Position numbers and translations under genes: made by a program. From positions 1 to 20,920 of the IMG/VR virus record IMGVR_UViG_3300004461_000434: DNA of 20,920 nt; one strand, 5' to 3'. Shown piece by piece: positions 17,734 through 20,811 of the stretch. The notes below the pieces were generated by a model. The model saw only the letters and a program-made list of their open reading frames with translations, searched no databases and was not told where the DNA came from. Numbering within the stretch: the first letter of the stretch is position 1; each line of letters opens with the position of its first letter. Source of the stretch: a virus.

Positions 17734-17765
17734 TTTGCTTTTTTGGCTCATGTTGGCTAGTTTTG
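17734..17765 (+). promoter_or_regulatory. Bacteroidetes-type promoter of the VRR-NUC gene (leaderless)
   Basis: TTTG at 17734-17737, a 20-bp spacer and TAGTTTTG at 17758-17765. The ATG of the nuclease gene begins 4 bases after the end of the -7 element, which places the predicted transcription start on the A of the ATG. It is also the nearest promoter upstream of the cassette array. Confidence 0.75.
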
Positions 17766-17768
17766 AGC

Positions 17769-18224
17769 ATGGATAAGAAAAGAACACCCCCAAAAGGTCG
17801 ACCGATGACCGAATCACAACTGCAAACAAAGTGCGTTTCGTGGTTCAACTCTAATTTTCCCGAATTACGGGGTTTATTGTATCACAACTATAACAACCCC
17901 CGGAACGCTATTTCCGGCGCGAGGTTGAAAGCCCAGGGGCTTGTCGCAGGTATTCCGGACTTGTCACTCGCTGCGGGTTCAATGTTATACATTGAATTGA
18001 AAGCAGAGGGCGGGCGCGTGTCGATAGAACAAAAATCTATACACCGTCAATTGGAGGCGTCGGGGTTTGAAGTCGAAATATGTTGGAACCTCGAAGAATT
18101 TGTCCGCGCGGTTGTTGATCACTTAGACGGTTTCAATTTTATCGAATATTCGTACGCGTGGAACTACGACGAAAACAAATTAGAGCGAGAGGGACCGCAA
18201 GGGATTAATTTTATAGGGGTTTAA
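17769..18224 (+). CDS. VRR-NUC nuclease
   Basis: I start at the ATG just after the promoter (151 residues); a TTG two codons earlier overlaps the -7 element and is unlikely. The fold pattern of VRR-NUC is plain: Glu15 in TESQLQ, then GIPDL (Asp64), IELK (Glu76 and Lys78) and a Gln in SIEQK (88), the PD-(D/E)XK set. VRR-NUC domains act as structure-specific or single-strand nucleases (as in FAN1 and many phage proteins) and probably process replication intermediates. The gene stands between the candidate origin and the cassette array and has the CG-rich codon use of the phage genes. Confidence 0.85.
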   Translation: MDKKRTPPKGRPMTESQLQTKCVSWFNSNFPELRGLLYHNYNNPRNAISGARLKAQGLVAGIPDLSLAAGSMLYIELKAEGGRVSIEQKSIHRQLEASGFEVEICWNLEEFVRAVVDHLDGFNFIEYSYAWNYDENKLEREGPQGINFIGV

Positions 18225-18285: not shown

Positions 18286-18379
18286 TAATAACGCTCCGCA
18301 TAAGATACGTGCGAAAACCAAAGAGAAAACAAATTAAAAAACTAAACTTAAATAGCATGGATTTTATGCCTTGTTATAT
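18286..18379 (+). repeat. attC-like site 1 (left edge of cassette array)
   Basis: R''-like box TAATAAC (18286-18292) followed by G, then a pairing arm GCATAA (18298) with TTATGC (18364), a long central part, and CTTG before the R'-like box GTTATAT (18373-18379). Predicted strand exchange lies after G18373. The central part carries ACTAAACTTAAATAGCATGG, like the leaders of the cassettes downstream. This is the weakest arm pairing of the six sites. Confidence 0.55.
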
Positions 18380-18385
18380 GCTTTT

Positions 18386-18595
18386 ATGGAAAACATACTA
18401 AGAGAAAATACGGAAATAAACGATGATATGCACATGATGTGTGCTGAAGGTTGTTGTGATGAAGAGCCAACTGAACAAGAAATCGAAAGGTTTTTGTGTA
18501 TTGAAGGATGGGCTATGAGTGGATTGCTAGACATAGATTTTGATGATTTTCAAAGTGTATGGAGGTGGAGATGTGGGATAGCTAGAGCAAGGTAA
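18386..18595 (+). CDS. Cassette 1 gene, unknown acidic protein (69 aa)
   Basis: The ATG at 18386 (MENILRENTEIND) lies 6 bases after the R' box of site 1; the frame is open to a TTG at 18371 inside the recombination box, which I reject. The protein is strongly acidic with a Cys-rich patch (MMCAEGCCDEEP) and a Trp-rich end (FQSVWRWRCGIARAR). I recognise no family. The codon use is AT-rich and unlike the phage genes to the left. It is the only gene of a 273-bp cassette. Confidence 0.55.
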   Translation: MENILRENTEINDDMHMMCAEGCCDEEPTEQEIERFLCIEGWAMSGLLDIDFDDFQSVWRWRCGIARAR

Positions 18596-18599
18596 TTAC

Positions 18600-18652
18600 C
18601 TATAACGTTAAGTATAAACGGTCGTTTTAATGCCGTTTATACAGTGTTACCC
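18600..18652 (+). repeat. attC-like site 2
   Basis: R'' box CTATAAC (18600-18606) then G; arms GTATAAACGG (18612-18621) and CCGTTTATAC (18633-18642) pair perfectly over 10 bp around an 11-base loop; R' box GTTACCC (18646-18652). The R'' TATAAC matches six bases of the reverse complement of the site 1 R' box, which would be its partner in the excised circle. Confidence 0.75.
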
Positions 18653-18674
18653 TTAGTTTTAAAAAAGATTTAAT

Positions 18675-19340
18675 ATGACAGAACAAACGATTTATAACGA
18701 AGATTGGCAAATAGGCACGAAGCGTATTGCAAATGATAGCGTTGACTTAGTAGTAACTGACCCACCTTACGGAATGGCATTTCAAAGCAACCACCGAAAA
18801 GTAAAACATAAAAGTATCCAAAACGACACGAACCTTGATTGGTTGGGTGGTTGGGTTAAAGAACTAAAACGTGTTTGTAAAGACGAAGCACACCTTTACA
18901 TTTTTTGCTCGTGGCATCACATAGATAAATTTAAGCAAGAAGTAGGTGCTTTATTTAATGTGAAAAATATTTTGATTTGGGAAAAGAACAATACTGGAAT
19001 GGGTGACCTTGAAGGAGATTATGCACCGAAATATGAAATGATACTTTTCTGTAGTAACGGAACAAAAAAATTGAAAGGTGGGCGTGATTCTAATATACTA
19101 AAAGCTAAAAGAACACAGAATGAAAACCACCCAACAGAGAAACCAATTAACCTAATAAGCTATTTGATTGAAAAAAGCAGTAACAAAGGTGATTTAGTTT
19201 TGGATACTTTTGCTGGGAGTTGTGGAACTGCGATTGCAAGTAGACAAAAAGAAAGGAATTGTATTTGCTTTGAAATTGAAGAAGATTACTGCAAAGTAGC
19301 GAATGAAAGATTATTTGCAACATCACTATCCCTTTTTTAA
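18675..19340 (+). CDS. Cassette 2 gene: DNA methyltransferase (N6-adenine or N4-cytosine)
   Basis: The 221-residue protein is a beta-type DNA methyltransferase. Motif IV DPPY (29-32) contacts the target base. HPTEKP (152-157) is motif X. LDTFAGSCG (176-184) is motif I, which binds S-adenosylmethionine; it has Cys where most relatives have Gly (FxGSG). Order DPPY before FxG is that of the beta group. DPPY is compatible with N6-adenine or N4-cytosine targets. No recognition domain or cognate restriction gene is seen, so an orphan enzyme that protects phage DNA from host restriction is likely. It fills a 750-bp cassette. Confidence 0.9.
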   Translation: MTEQTIYNEDWQIGTKRIANDSVDLVVTDPPYGMAFQSNHRKVKHKSIQNDTNLDWLGGWVKELKRVCKDEAHLYIFCSWHHIDKFKQEVGALFNVKNILIWEKNNTGMGDLEGDYAPKYEMILFCSNGTKKLKGGRDSNILKAKRTQNENHPTEKPINLISYLIEKSSNKGDLVLDTFAGSCGTAIASRQKERNCICFEIEEDYCKVANERLFATSLSLF

Positions 19341-19343
19341 TAT

Positions 19344-19402
19344 TAAGGGTAACGTTGAGTACATGAGCCTGTGCGTAGCATGGCTTATGTATATTGTTAT
19401 AC
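19344..19402 (+). repeat. attC-like site 3
   Basis: R'' box TAAGGGTAAC (19344-19353) is the exact reverse complement of the first 10 bases of the left junction of its cassette (18646-18655). Arms ACATGAGCC (19361-19369) and GGCTTATGT (19382-19390) pair over 9 bp with one G-T. R' box GTTATAC (19396-19402). It starts 3 bp after the methyltransferase stop codon. Confidence 0.85.
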
Positions 19403-19425
19403 ACGCACAAATTAAAAAAGTAGAT

Positions 19426-19644
19426 ATGGAAAAATATAGCGATTTCGGGAGAATGATGACGGGTTTCGATAATAGTTCTGACCACGCATTTTACGGACAC
19501 CACAGCAACCCAGAGTACCAACAGAACCAACAAATGGAAGGTATGAGCGAGGAAGAATATAAAGAGTACACGAAGAAGCAGAGCGAAAAGGAACAAGAAC
19601 AAAAACAAATAGGTGAGGAGATTGATGAATCTATGCCTTTTTAA
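19426..19644 (+). CDS. Cassette 3 gene, unknown polar protein with SSB-like acidic tip (72 aa)
   Basis: The ATG at 19426 (MEKYSDFGRMM) is chosen because the upstream part of the frame crosses attC site 3. The protein is polar, with Gln/Glu/Lys-rich helical parts (SEEEYKEYTKKQSEKEQEQ). Its last residues are GEEIDESMPF: acidic residues before a final Pro-Phe, much as in the docking tip of SSB proteins. No other family is known to me. It may bind an SSB partner or simply mimic the tip. AT-rich, in a 310-bp cassette. Confidence 0.55.
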   Translation: MEKYSDFGRMMTGFDNSSDHAFYGHHSNPEYQQNQQMEGMSEEEYKEYTKKQSEKEQEQKQIGEEIDESMPF

Positions 19645-19655
19645 TTTTTGTAGTT

Positions 19656-19712
19656 TATAACGCTCCTTGTATGTGGAGCGAGGAACGAGTTACATTATAC
19701 AAATTGTTAGCT
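19656..19712 (+). repeat. attC-like site 4
   Basis: R'' box TATAAC (19656-19661) then G; outer arms TTGTAT (19667) and ATACAA (19697) pair over 6 bp; within lies a further hairpin, CGCTCC with GGAGCG (19661-19666 and 19675-19680). R' box GTTAGCT (19706-19712). The R'' shares TATAAC with the reverse complement of the site 3 R' box. Confidence 0.7.
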
Positions 19713-19749
19713 TTCCGTTTTGGATTGCTAACCACTAAACTTTATTAAT

Positions 19750-19950
19750 ATGGGAAAACTAGAATTTGCAAAAGCTATTACAGAACAAGACTTAGGGGTT
19801 ACCGCATCAAGCGTAATGAGTGACTGCTATAAATATGGAATGACTTACGGCTGTGATGTAGACTGTCCAGTACTTAAAAGCGGTAACTGTGAACTACAAG
19901 ACACAGACAACAAAGAGCTTTATAAAGAAGCTATTAAAAATGAAAGCTAA
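19750..19950 (+). CDS. Cassette 4 gene, unknown cysteine-containing protein (66 aa)
   Basis: The N-terminal part is helical (KLEFAKAITEQDLGVTASSV). The middle has four cysteines (CYKYGMTYGC, then CDVDCPVLKSGNC; five with the last), a small putative metal- or disulphide-containing patch. I know no family. The start has the leader ACTAAACTTTATTAATATG, nearly identical to that of cassette 5. The stop codon TAA lies inside the R'' box of site 5. It is the sole gene of a 362-bp cassette. Confidence 0.6.
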   Translation: MGKLEFAKAITEQDLGVTASSVMSDCYKYGMTYGCDVDCPVLKSGNCELQDTDNKELYKEAIKNES

Positions 19951-20074
19951 CGGTTAATGTATGAATAGTAAGGCATACTAAGCAAACCTTACAAGCGAAA
20001 ATGTTAACTAAGTAGCTTGTTTAATATTGAATTGAGATAGGTCGAGCCTTATTATTTTATACATCTTGTTATCA
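19942..20074 (+). repeat. attC-like site 5
   Basis: R'' box GAAAGCTAAC (19942-19951) is the exact reverse complement of the first 10 bases of its cassette junction (19706-19715). A long imperfect stem joins ATGTATGAATAGTAAGGC (19957-19974) with the arm GCCTTATTATTTTATACAT (20046-20064). The differences leave unpaired bases of the kind found in attC stems. R' box GTTATCA (20068-20074). It is the longest of the sites (133 bp). Confidence 0.85.
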
Positions 20075-20097
20075 TTACTATACTAAACTTAATAAAT

Positions 20098-20331
20098 ATG
20101 CACACATTCAAGAAAAACGATTTAATACATAGAACAGCCTACGAGTTTACAGGACGTAAAAGGAACGGTAAATGTGCCTTTATGCTACAAATAAAAGGTA
20201 AAGGATGGAGAAAGGTAGCTAGTGGAAATATGAATGACTACACTGCTGTAATTCACTTACTGAAAACAAACGAATACACTACACACGAGGAAGCTAGAGA
20301 ATTATTAATAAAAGAGAAGTTTCTCAATTAA
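20098..20331 (+). CDS. Cassette 5 gene, unknown basic protein (77 aa)
   Basis: The protein is basic and seems alpha/beta (MHTFKKNDLIHRTAYEFTG at the start, then strands AFMLQIKGKGWRKVASG, and helices NDYTAVIHLLK and HEEARELLIKEKF). I recognise no family. The leader ACTAAACTTAATAAATATG is shared with cassette 4. The stop codon is part of the R'' box of site 6. It is the only gene in a 310-bp cassette. Confidence 0.6.
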   Translation: MHTFKKNDLIHRTAYEFTGRKRNGKCAFMLQIKGKGWRKVASGNMNDYTAVIHLLKTNEYTTHEEARELLIKEKFLN

Positions 20332-20384
20332 TGATAACATTGAAGCAAACGCCGTTTCAATGGCGTGTTTGCTGAATGTTATAC
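20329..20384 (+). repeat. attC-like site 6 (right edge of cassette array)
   Basis: R'' box TAATGATAAC (20329-20338) is the exact reverse complement of the first 10 bases of its cassette junction (20068-20077). ATAACATT pairs with AATGTTAT and AGCAAAC with GTTTGCT, separated by a small mismatch. The tip is ACGCC/GGCGT around GTTTCAAT. R' box GTTATAC (20378-20384). The 18-bp tip sequence recurs directly afterwards. Confidence 0.85.
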
Positions 20385-20404
20385 GCCGTTTCAATGGCGT
20401 TTTT
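20383..20404 (+). terminator. Intrinsic terminator between cassette array and terminase genes
   Basis: ACGCC (20383) pairs with GGCGT (20396) around GTTTCAAT, followed by TTTT. The same 18 bases, without the T tract, form the tip of attC-like site 6 at 20349-20366. It would end transcription from the array and isolate the terminase genes, though the stem is only 5 bp. Confidence 0.5.
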
Positions 20405-20427: not shown

Positions 20428-20811
20428 ATGCCTACAAAGACAAATAAAACCGTACACAATAAAAAGCGAGTGTTAAAAGCACTCGTGAAATCGTTGGGGA
20501 TAGTTACGACAGCGTGCAAAGAAACAGACATTTCGACGACTCAATTTTATCATTGGATAAAGACAGACGAGGAATTCAAAAAAGACGTTGAATCTGTCGG
20601 GGACGTGGCACTCGATTTTGCCGAGAGTAAACTATTAGAAAACATCAAAGAGCAAAAAGAGACATCTATAATTTTCTACCTTAAAACAAAAGGCAAAAAA
20701 CGCGGGTACATTGAGAAAACAGAAGTTGACACCAAAGTCACAACGGTACAATTTGCGATAAATAAACCCGTATCGGATGACGACCAAGACCAGGAAATCC
20801 CGACGGTTTAA
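20428..20811 (+). CDS. terS: Terminase small subunit
   Basis: The ATG at 20428 (MPTKTNKTVHNKKRV, 127 residues) is chosen; the frame is open upstream to 20365 but crosses the attC-like site and terminator. It has the homeodomain-like HTH usual in TerS of the phBC6A51 type: VLKALVKSLGIVTTACKETDIS, then TTQFYHWIKTDEEFKKDVE (about 15-58), followed by a helical region (ALDFAESKLLENIKEQ) and an IIFYLKTKGKKRGY block. TerS binds phage DNA and guides TerL for packaging. The stop overlaps the start of the large-subunit gene (TAATG). Confidence 0.85.
   Translation: MPTKTNKTVHNKKRVLKALVKSLGIVTTACKETDISTTQFYHWIKTDEEFKKDVESVGDVALDFAESKLLENIKEQKETSIIFYLKTKGKKRGYIEKTEVDTKVTTVQFAINKPVSDDDQDQEIPTV

Follow-up and report, generated by a model that had tools for sequence, protein, structure and literature searches.

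The window analysed here (20,920 nt, the whole of IMG/VR contig IMGVR_UViG_3300004461_000434) belongs to a tailed phage with tail and lysis genes. Its recombination/replication genes, encoding a helicase, a VapE-type primase and a VRR-NUC protein, are followed by an array of five genes alternating with six attC-type sites, all on the plus strand, and then by a probable small-terminase gene (Table 1). The genes, sites, coordinates and box matches reported for this region in a first-pass annotation were exact. The six sites span 2.1 kb, in agreement with the definition of a CALIN (cassette cluster lacking an integrase), which asks for two or more attC sites over a few kb. The phage probably infects Flavobacteriaceae, to judge from Tenacibaculum phage JQ, Polaribacter phage P12002L, Cellulophaga phage phi46:3 and a weak terminase similarity. 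An Rfam scan of the window gave no match and a promoter scan gave no excess over shuffles.

Table 1. Genes and attC-type sites of the cassette array and its two neighboring genes in the window.
Feature	Position	Strand	Description
VRR-NUC domain gene	17763..18224	+	Pfam VRR_NUC, E 6e-7; left neighbor of the array, phage recombination/replication block
Site W1	18286-18379	+	Long loop, left array edge; 84% identical copy in phage contig L056
Cassette 1 gene	18371..18595	+	74 aa, acidic; matches no family over the cut-off
Site W2	18600-18652	+	53 nt hairpin, CGTTTTAATG loop; cassette 2 genes of JQ, L052 and L056 are preceded by a loop of this type
Cassette 2 gene	18675..19340	+	N6/N4 DNA methyltransferase, 221 aa; Pfam N6_N4_Mtase, 5e-39
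Site W3	19347-19402	+	attC-type; box pairing and covariance model
Cassette 3 gene	19426..19644	+	72 aa, start at 19426; no family
Site W4	19655-19712	+	attC-type; box pairing and covariance model
Cassette 4 gene	19750..19950	+	66 aa; homologues are ordinary phage genes
Site W5	19945-20074	+	attC-type, 130 nt; box pairing and scanner
Cassette 5 gene	20098..20331	+	77 aa; no relatives found outside the window phage
Site W6	20332-20384	+	attC-type, right array edge; box pairing and covariance model
Probable small-terminase gene	20428..20811	+	Named by position; right neighbor of the array; large terminase next in L001

The array sites display the elements that define an attC, namely R'' and R' boxes and inverted L arms able to pair. 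Across each cassette the R' and R'' boxes match exactly, over 10 bases in cassettes 2, 4 and 5 and over 6 bases in cassettes 1 and 3, and the true pairing (30/35 bases matching) is the single best among all 120 pairings; when the JQ array is included, 69/84 bases match versus 32 by permutation (p about 1e-5). Within one site the R'' and R' boxes match poorly (39/112), as expected for integrated cassettes. A covariance-model search, as proposed in the first-pass annotation with another attC model, was carried out with a model built from 19 sites, those of the window among them, and returned five sites, all in the array (E 3e-6 to 2e-3), with no match elsewhere in the window; under default filters this model misses sites having loops of about 100 nt. 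In the 19 sites the arms pair in 95.5% of cells over 13 pairs, nine of which show double changes, figures that are partly circular since the sites were chosen for inverted arms. At its threshold a simple scanner recovered five of the six array sites and one match outside the array, and dinucleotide shuffles gave 0-1 per strand. Folding of the bottom strands, likewise suggested at first pass, bore out four of the sites, which fold better than shuffles (W2, z -3.0; W3, z -2.5; W4, z -2.3, with a minimum-energy fold other than the L''/L' hairpin; W6, z -4.8), but not the long-looped W1 (z -0.95) and W5 (z -0.22), whose bottom strands fold no better than shuffles.

The two sites that do not outperform shuffles could be taken to indicate that the array consists of chance inverted repeats or arose from an assembly join. 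Such a reading is, however, at odds with the R'/R'' pairing test, with the like sites seen in two phage isolates, JQ and P12002L, and in 44 further arrays, and with an independent contig. The latter (L001, 20.3 kb, metagenomic) runs from the end of W2 through cassettes 2-5 to the terminase and differs from the window at one of 2278 bases. This second copy of the segment excludes a chimeric join on the right side of the array, the point on which a coverage check had been advised. Chance or misassembly is thus extremely improbable and, in practice, excluded by the present results. L001 terminates inside W2, which would be a natural assembly break point if cassettes vary.

A relative with an 83% identical large terminase (L019) has the VRR-NUC gene followed directly by another gene and the large terminase, and the array is absent. 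The gene found there at the small-terminase position, beside the position of the array, is unrelated to that of the window. L019 was considered as an exact empty site and rejected, since this gene is of another type and the empty site cannot be read to the base. Gain of the array and exchange of the gene at the small-terminase position may have coincided between L019-type relatives and the window phage.

The cargo of the array, methyltransferases and very small proteins, likely serves counter-defence or accessory functions. Homologues of the cassette 4 gene occur in Riemerella phages (49%) and in contig L266 (75%, L266 1907-2077), with no attC-type site found around the latter. Since other phages have it as an ordinary gene, apparently outside any cassette, phage genes can be turned into cassettes, or cassettes into phage genes. 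A search for cassette 4 in 149 Flavobacteriaceae genomes, run without a positive control, gave no match.

No recombinase was detected in the array-bearing phages examined. Pfam searches covering the window, L001, the complete JQ genome, P12002L and eight other records, 11 records in one of the searches, gave no PF00589 match over the cut-off, and a C-terminal tyrosine-recombinase motif was present in 0/115 phage array loci (1.13 Mb; 98 of these loci came in via the attC pattern described below) versus 62/66 control loci. The proposal of a CALIN-like phage array without integrase is thereby sustained for the window and L001, on the understanding that the phage genome may be incomplete; a complete integron, with intI and attI beside the array, is not present in the window. 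The accompanying remark that such phages are little described holds only in part. CALINs have been reported in phages, 17 in 10,705 genomes, among them Polaribacter phage P12002L, Tetrasphaera phage TJE1 and Pseudoalteromonas phage PH101, and recombination by IntI1 was shown for five of the six phage sites tested, including attC2 of P12002L with class 1 IntI1 (Qi et al., 2023; PMC9892861). The category is therefore already known. With regard to direction, that study noted divergent attC directions in P12002L and nothing more (PMC9892861).

Comparison of genomes shows that single cassettes move between unrelated phages. Cassette 2, and only this cassette, has a counterpart of 91% DNA identity in Tenacibaculum phage JQ (L015), an isolate whose circular genome is complete, and the cassette recurs in IMG/VR contigs at 94-95% (L052, L053) and 81-83% (L055-L057), with differing neighbors; the gene copies of the window, JQ, L052 and L053 are 93-96% identical. 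JQ has an array of its own with about ten sites (L015 39297-40712 and 1-4400), annotated as hypothetical proteins and two methyltransferases. In total, cassette 2 was found in at least seven neighborhoods, homology stopping at the site cores (AA|C), so that the cassette-by-cassette gain or loss anticipated at first pass, a mark of CALINs, was indeed observed. Hallmark genes identify several of these contigs as phages, namely those for a portal (L055), a head maturation protease (L056), a primase-helicase (L060) and a terminase plus portal (L036). An alternative is that the arrays move through homologous recombination at hairpins that resemble one another (phage annealing of the Erf/RecT type), the sites being relics. 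Array phages do encode annealing and nuclease functions (L053 has Erf, the window VRR-NUC), and some copies have exchanged both flanking hairpins. This explanation is nevertheless quite improbable, given that the hairpins outside the AA|C boundary are unrelated, that three cassette-2 copies have no site downstream, the array ending after the gene at AA|C, and that R'/R'' matching is kept cassette by cassette, which annealing would not maintain. No cassettes common to phage and chromosome arrays were found, and the chromosomal methyltransferase relatives of cassette 2 in Flavobacteriaceae (about 67% identical) were not in arrays. Cellulophaga phage phi46:3 (L269, NC_021792 53394-53523) has one attC-type site, which shares 84% identity with a site of JQ and sits in a minus-strand gene block within a plus-strand structural operon.

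One attC pattern retrieves 98 IMG/VR stretches, whose viral status rests on IMG/VR, and 44 loci with chained sites. In these phage-type sites the AAC-side spacer measures 5-6 nt and the GTT-side spacer 2-4 nt, and the polarity of the sites relative to the genes is the reverse of that in canonical integrons. Polarity was read from this spacer asymmetry rather than from cleavage, with the canonical direction anchored on a Bacteroidota IntI locus (L177; intI divergent from the genes) where, read along the genes, the longer spacer is that of the R' side; an extra base occurs in L'' at this locus and likewise in a Vibrio array (L189). A bulge-side test was uninformative in both the phage and the chromosomal sets, hence the reliance on spacer lengths. 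Scored in this way, with ORF direction taken from ATG-started ORFs, phage cassettes are reversed in a ratio of 29:0, and of 73:1 in a further sample that was gathered by attC pattern and does not depend on cassette 2 (total 102:1), whereas chromosomal cassettes of Flavobacteriaceae comprise 3 reversed versus 79 canonical (29:0 versus 3:79, Fisher 1e-23; by locus, 14:0 versus 0:23). Thresholds and polarity rules were set on the same data and then tested on the sample obtained by the attC pattern only. The first-pass annotation gave sites and genes a common orientation; all sites do lie on the strand of the genes, but the reversal of their polarity had gone unnoticed.

In a canonical cassette the gene reads toward R'' and the attC lies 3' of it; phage cassettes do not have this form, and a gene direction opposite to the canonical attC polarity means that the phage hairpin lies 5' of the gene to which it belongs. 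This arrangement fits the array ends devoid of a site and the fact that the upstream hairpin is common to two pairs of cassette-2 copies (95% and 92%) and the downstream hairpin to none. The upstream hairpins of the window, JQ, L052 and L053 copies diverge more than the gene, an observation without a simple explanation under either polarity. Half sites, consisting of an R'' box without the rest of the attC, were noted at the end of arrays or inside them (L015 4328-4360 and 351-385; L052 1268; L055 6665), a pattern that hairpins placed 5' of their genes would be expected to give. The nearly uniform reversal in phages versus chromosomes points to a separate pool of cassettes maintained among phages.

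These results bear on the source of the recombinase, which the first-pass annotation had sought in a host IntI. Were the array an ordinary CALIN served by canonical IntI, phage arrays would be fragments of host chromosomal integrons and the direction of their genes incidental. It is true that IntI1 recombines the attC sites of P12002L and other phages (PMC9892861) and that IntI is common elsewhere in the phylum (TIGR02249 over the cut-off in 105/395 genomes), but none of the 397 sampled Flavobacteriaceae genomes has one, random pick-up cannot yield a split of 102:1 in phages versus 3:79 in chromosomes, and phage cassette genes are shorter (median 294-354 nt versus 633 nt in chromosomes). An origin of this kind is unlikely, and mobilization by a host integrase of the usual type is doubtful; another recombinase family adjoins the arrays of these hosts.

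With E values of up to 0.05 accepted, phage-type attC-like sites occur in 29/149 Flavobacteriaceae genomes, compared with about 7 expected by chance, and a recombinase family of 356-400 aa (alignment A3, hereafter A3) adjoins such sites. A3 proteins score 179-208 bits against TIGR02249 (cut-off 265), lack the IntI-specific insert of about 40 residues and have about 100 extra N-terminal residues; by cut-off and insert they fall outside IntI. The nearest NCBIfam model, NF040815, is named 'site-specific tyrosine recombinase/integron integrase', so the broader family already bears such a name. Chained arrays accompany A3 in 14/26 loci, that is in 14/18 of those where 2 kb or more of sequence is available on the 3' side of the gene, and in 0/20 XerCD-like control loci. 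All site pairs at A3 loci (56/56) lie 3' of the recombinase gene and have a single, canonical polarity. Seven loci present a GTT box 25-111 bp past the stop codon, in most cases preceded by a hairpin, and this box matches the R'' of the first cassette at 7/7 bases in six loci and 6/7 in one, which suggests an attI-like site. By sequence, A3 loci thus contain a putative integrase, an adjacent attI-like site and an attC array, the components of an integron platform, and look like an integron with the integrase co-directional with its cassettes and attI at its 3' end. Previously unrecognised integron-like platforms of this kind, in which a recombinase devoid of the IntI insert is followed by an attI-like site and by arrays of co-directional cassette genes, were seen in Flavobacteriaceae genomes (L154, L228, L230, L233, L239, L240, L152 and others). 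Many copies sit at contig ends, as repeats would cause. A scanner tuned to the phage site subtype gave mostly no matches at canonical IntI loci. No description of an A3-type platform was found in the open-access literature, which is not all literature.

Taken together, the preferred explanation (probability about 0.7) is a phage-adapted, CALIN-like pool of reverse-polarity cassettes shuffled in trans by a host integrase, probably of the non-IntI A3 family. Single-stranded phage DNA would fold during infection, and its cassettes would be cut and joined in trans by the host recombinase. A3 is the first candidate, because phage arrays and A3 loci have the site motif in common and both JQ and P12002L infect Flavobacteriaceae, and is probably the moving enzyme; canonical IntI is also possible, given the activity of IntI1 on a site of P12002L (PMC9892861). 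Cassettes inserted between co-directional phage genes would be expressed without a cassette promoter. A phage cassette caught at a host attI would be antisense, as would a host cassette caught in a phage array, a constraint that would keep the phage and chromosomal pools largely separate, in line with the lack of shared cassettes so far. In a bolder form, put forward tentatively at slightly below even odds, flavobacterial phages would have their own cassette economy, with attC 5' of the gene and cassettes silent in the host integron, shuffled by an unrecognised class of XerA-like host integrases (no IntI insert, an N-terminal extension) that defines a separate integron class in Flavobacteriaceae.

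The phage arrays resemble published phage CALINs in being integrase-less attC arrays in virulent phages, with methyltransferase cargo and a marine flavobacterial member (P12002L), the published sites being active with IntI1 (PMC9892861). They differ in that 98 IMG/VR stretches share one site subtype with almost uniformly reversed polarity, in the occurrence of single cassettes in unrelated phages and in the non-IntI host recombinase proposed. Like canonical integrons (IntI, attI and attC; Vibrio superintegrons, Bacteroidota IntI loci), they have the R'', L'', L', R' layout, a G|TT-type core, box pairing across the cassette and one gene per cassette, whereas they reside in phages without IntI or attI, their genes are reversed relative to attC polarity and the hairpin is 5' of the gene. 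A3 loci share with the phage arrays the attC motif and one-gene cassettes, and show an attI-like hairpin; unlike these arrays they are chromosomal, with an integrase that is present, co-directional with the cassettes and devoid of the IntI-specific insert, and with canonical polarity. As far as could be checked, nothing has been published on the reversal of polarity, on how abundant the arrays are, on cassette exchange among unrelated phages or on a host platform without IntI. If this interpretation is true, marine phages would commonly trade methyltransferases and other small genes through integron-type exchange, a process that would follow its own rules (reversed polarity, a helper enzyme from the host), and the question of who moves the cassettes of integrase-less arrays becomes testable. 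It also points to a class of Flavobacteriaceae integrons scoring below the cut-off in IntI-based searches (TIGR02249-type models).

At the right edge of the array a closing box for W6 was looked for downstream and none was found. The motif GCCGTTTCAATGGCGT occurs there twice, at the tip of W6 (20354-20369) and again right after it (20384-20400), the second copy being followed by five T in a terminator-like arrangement.
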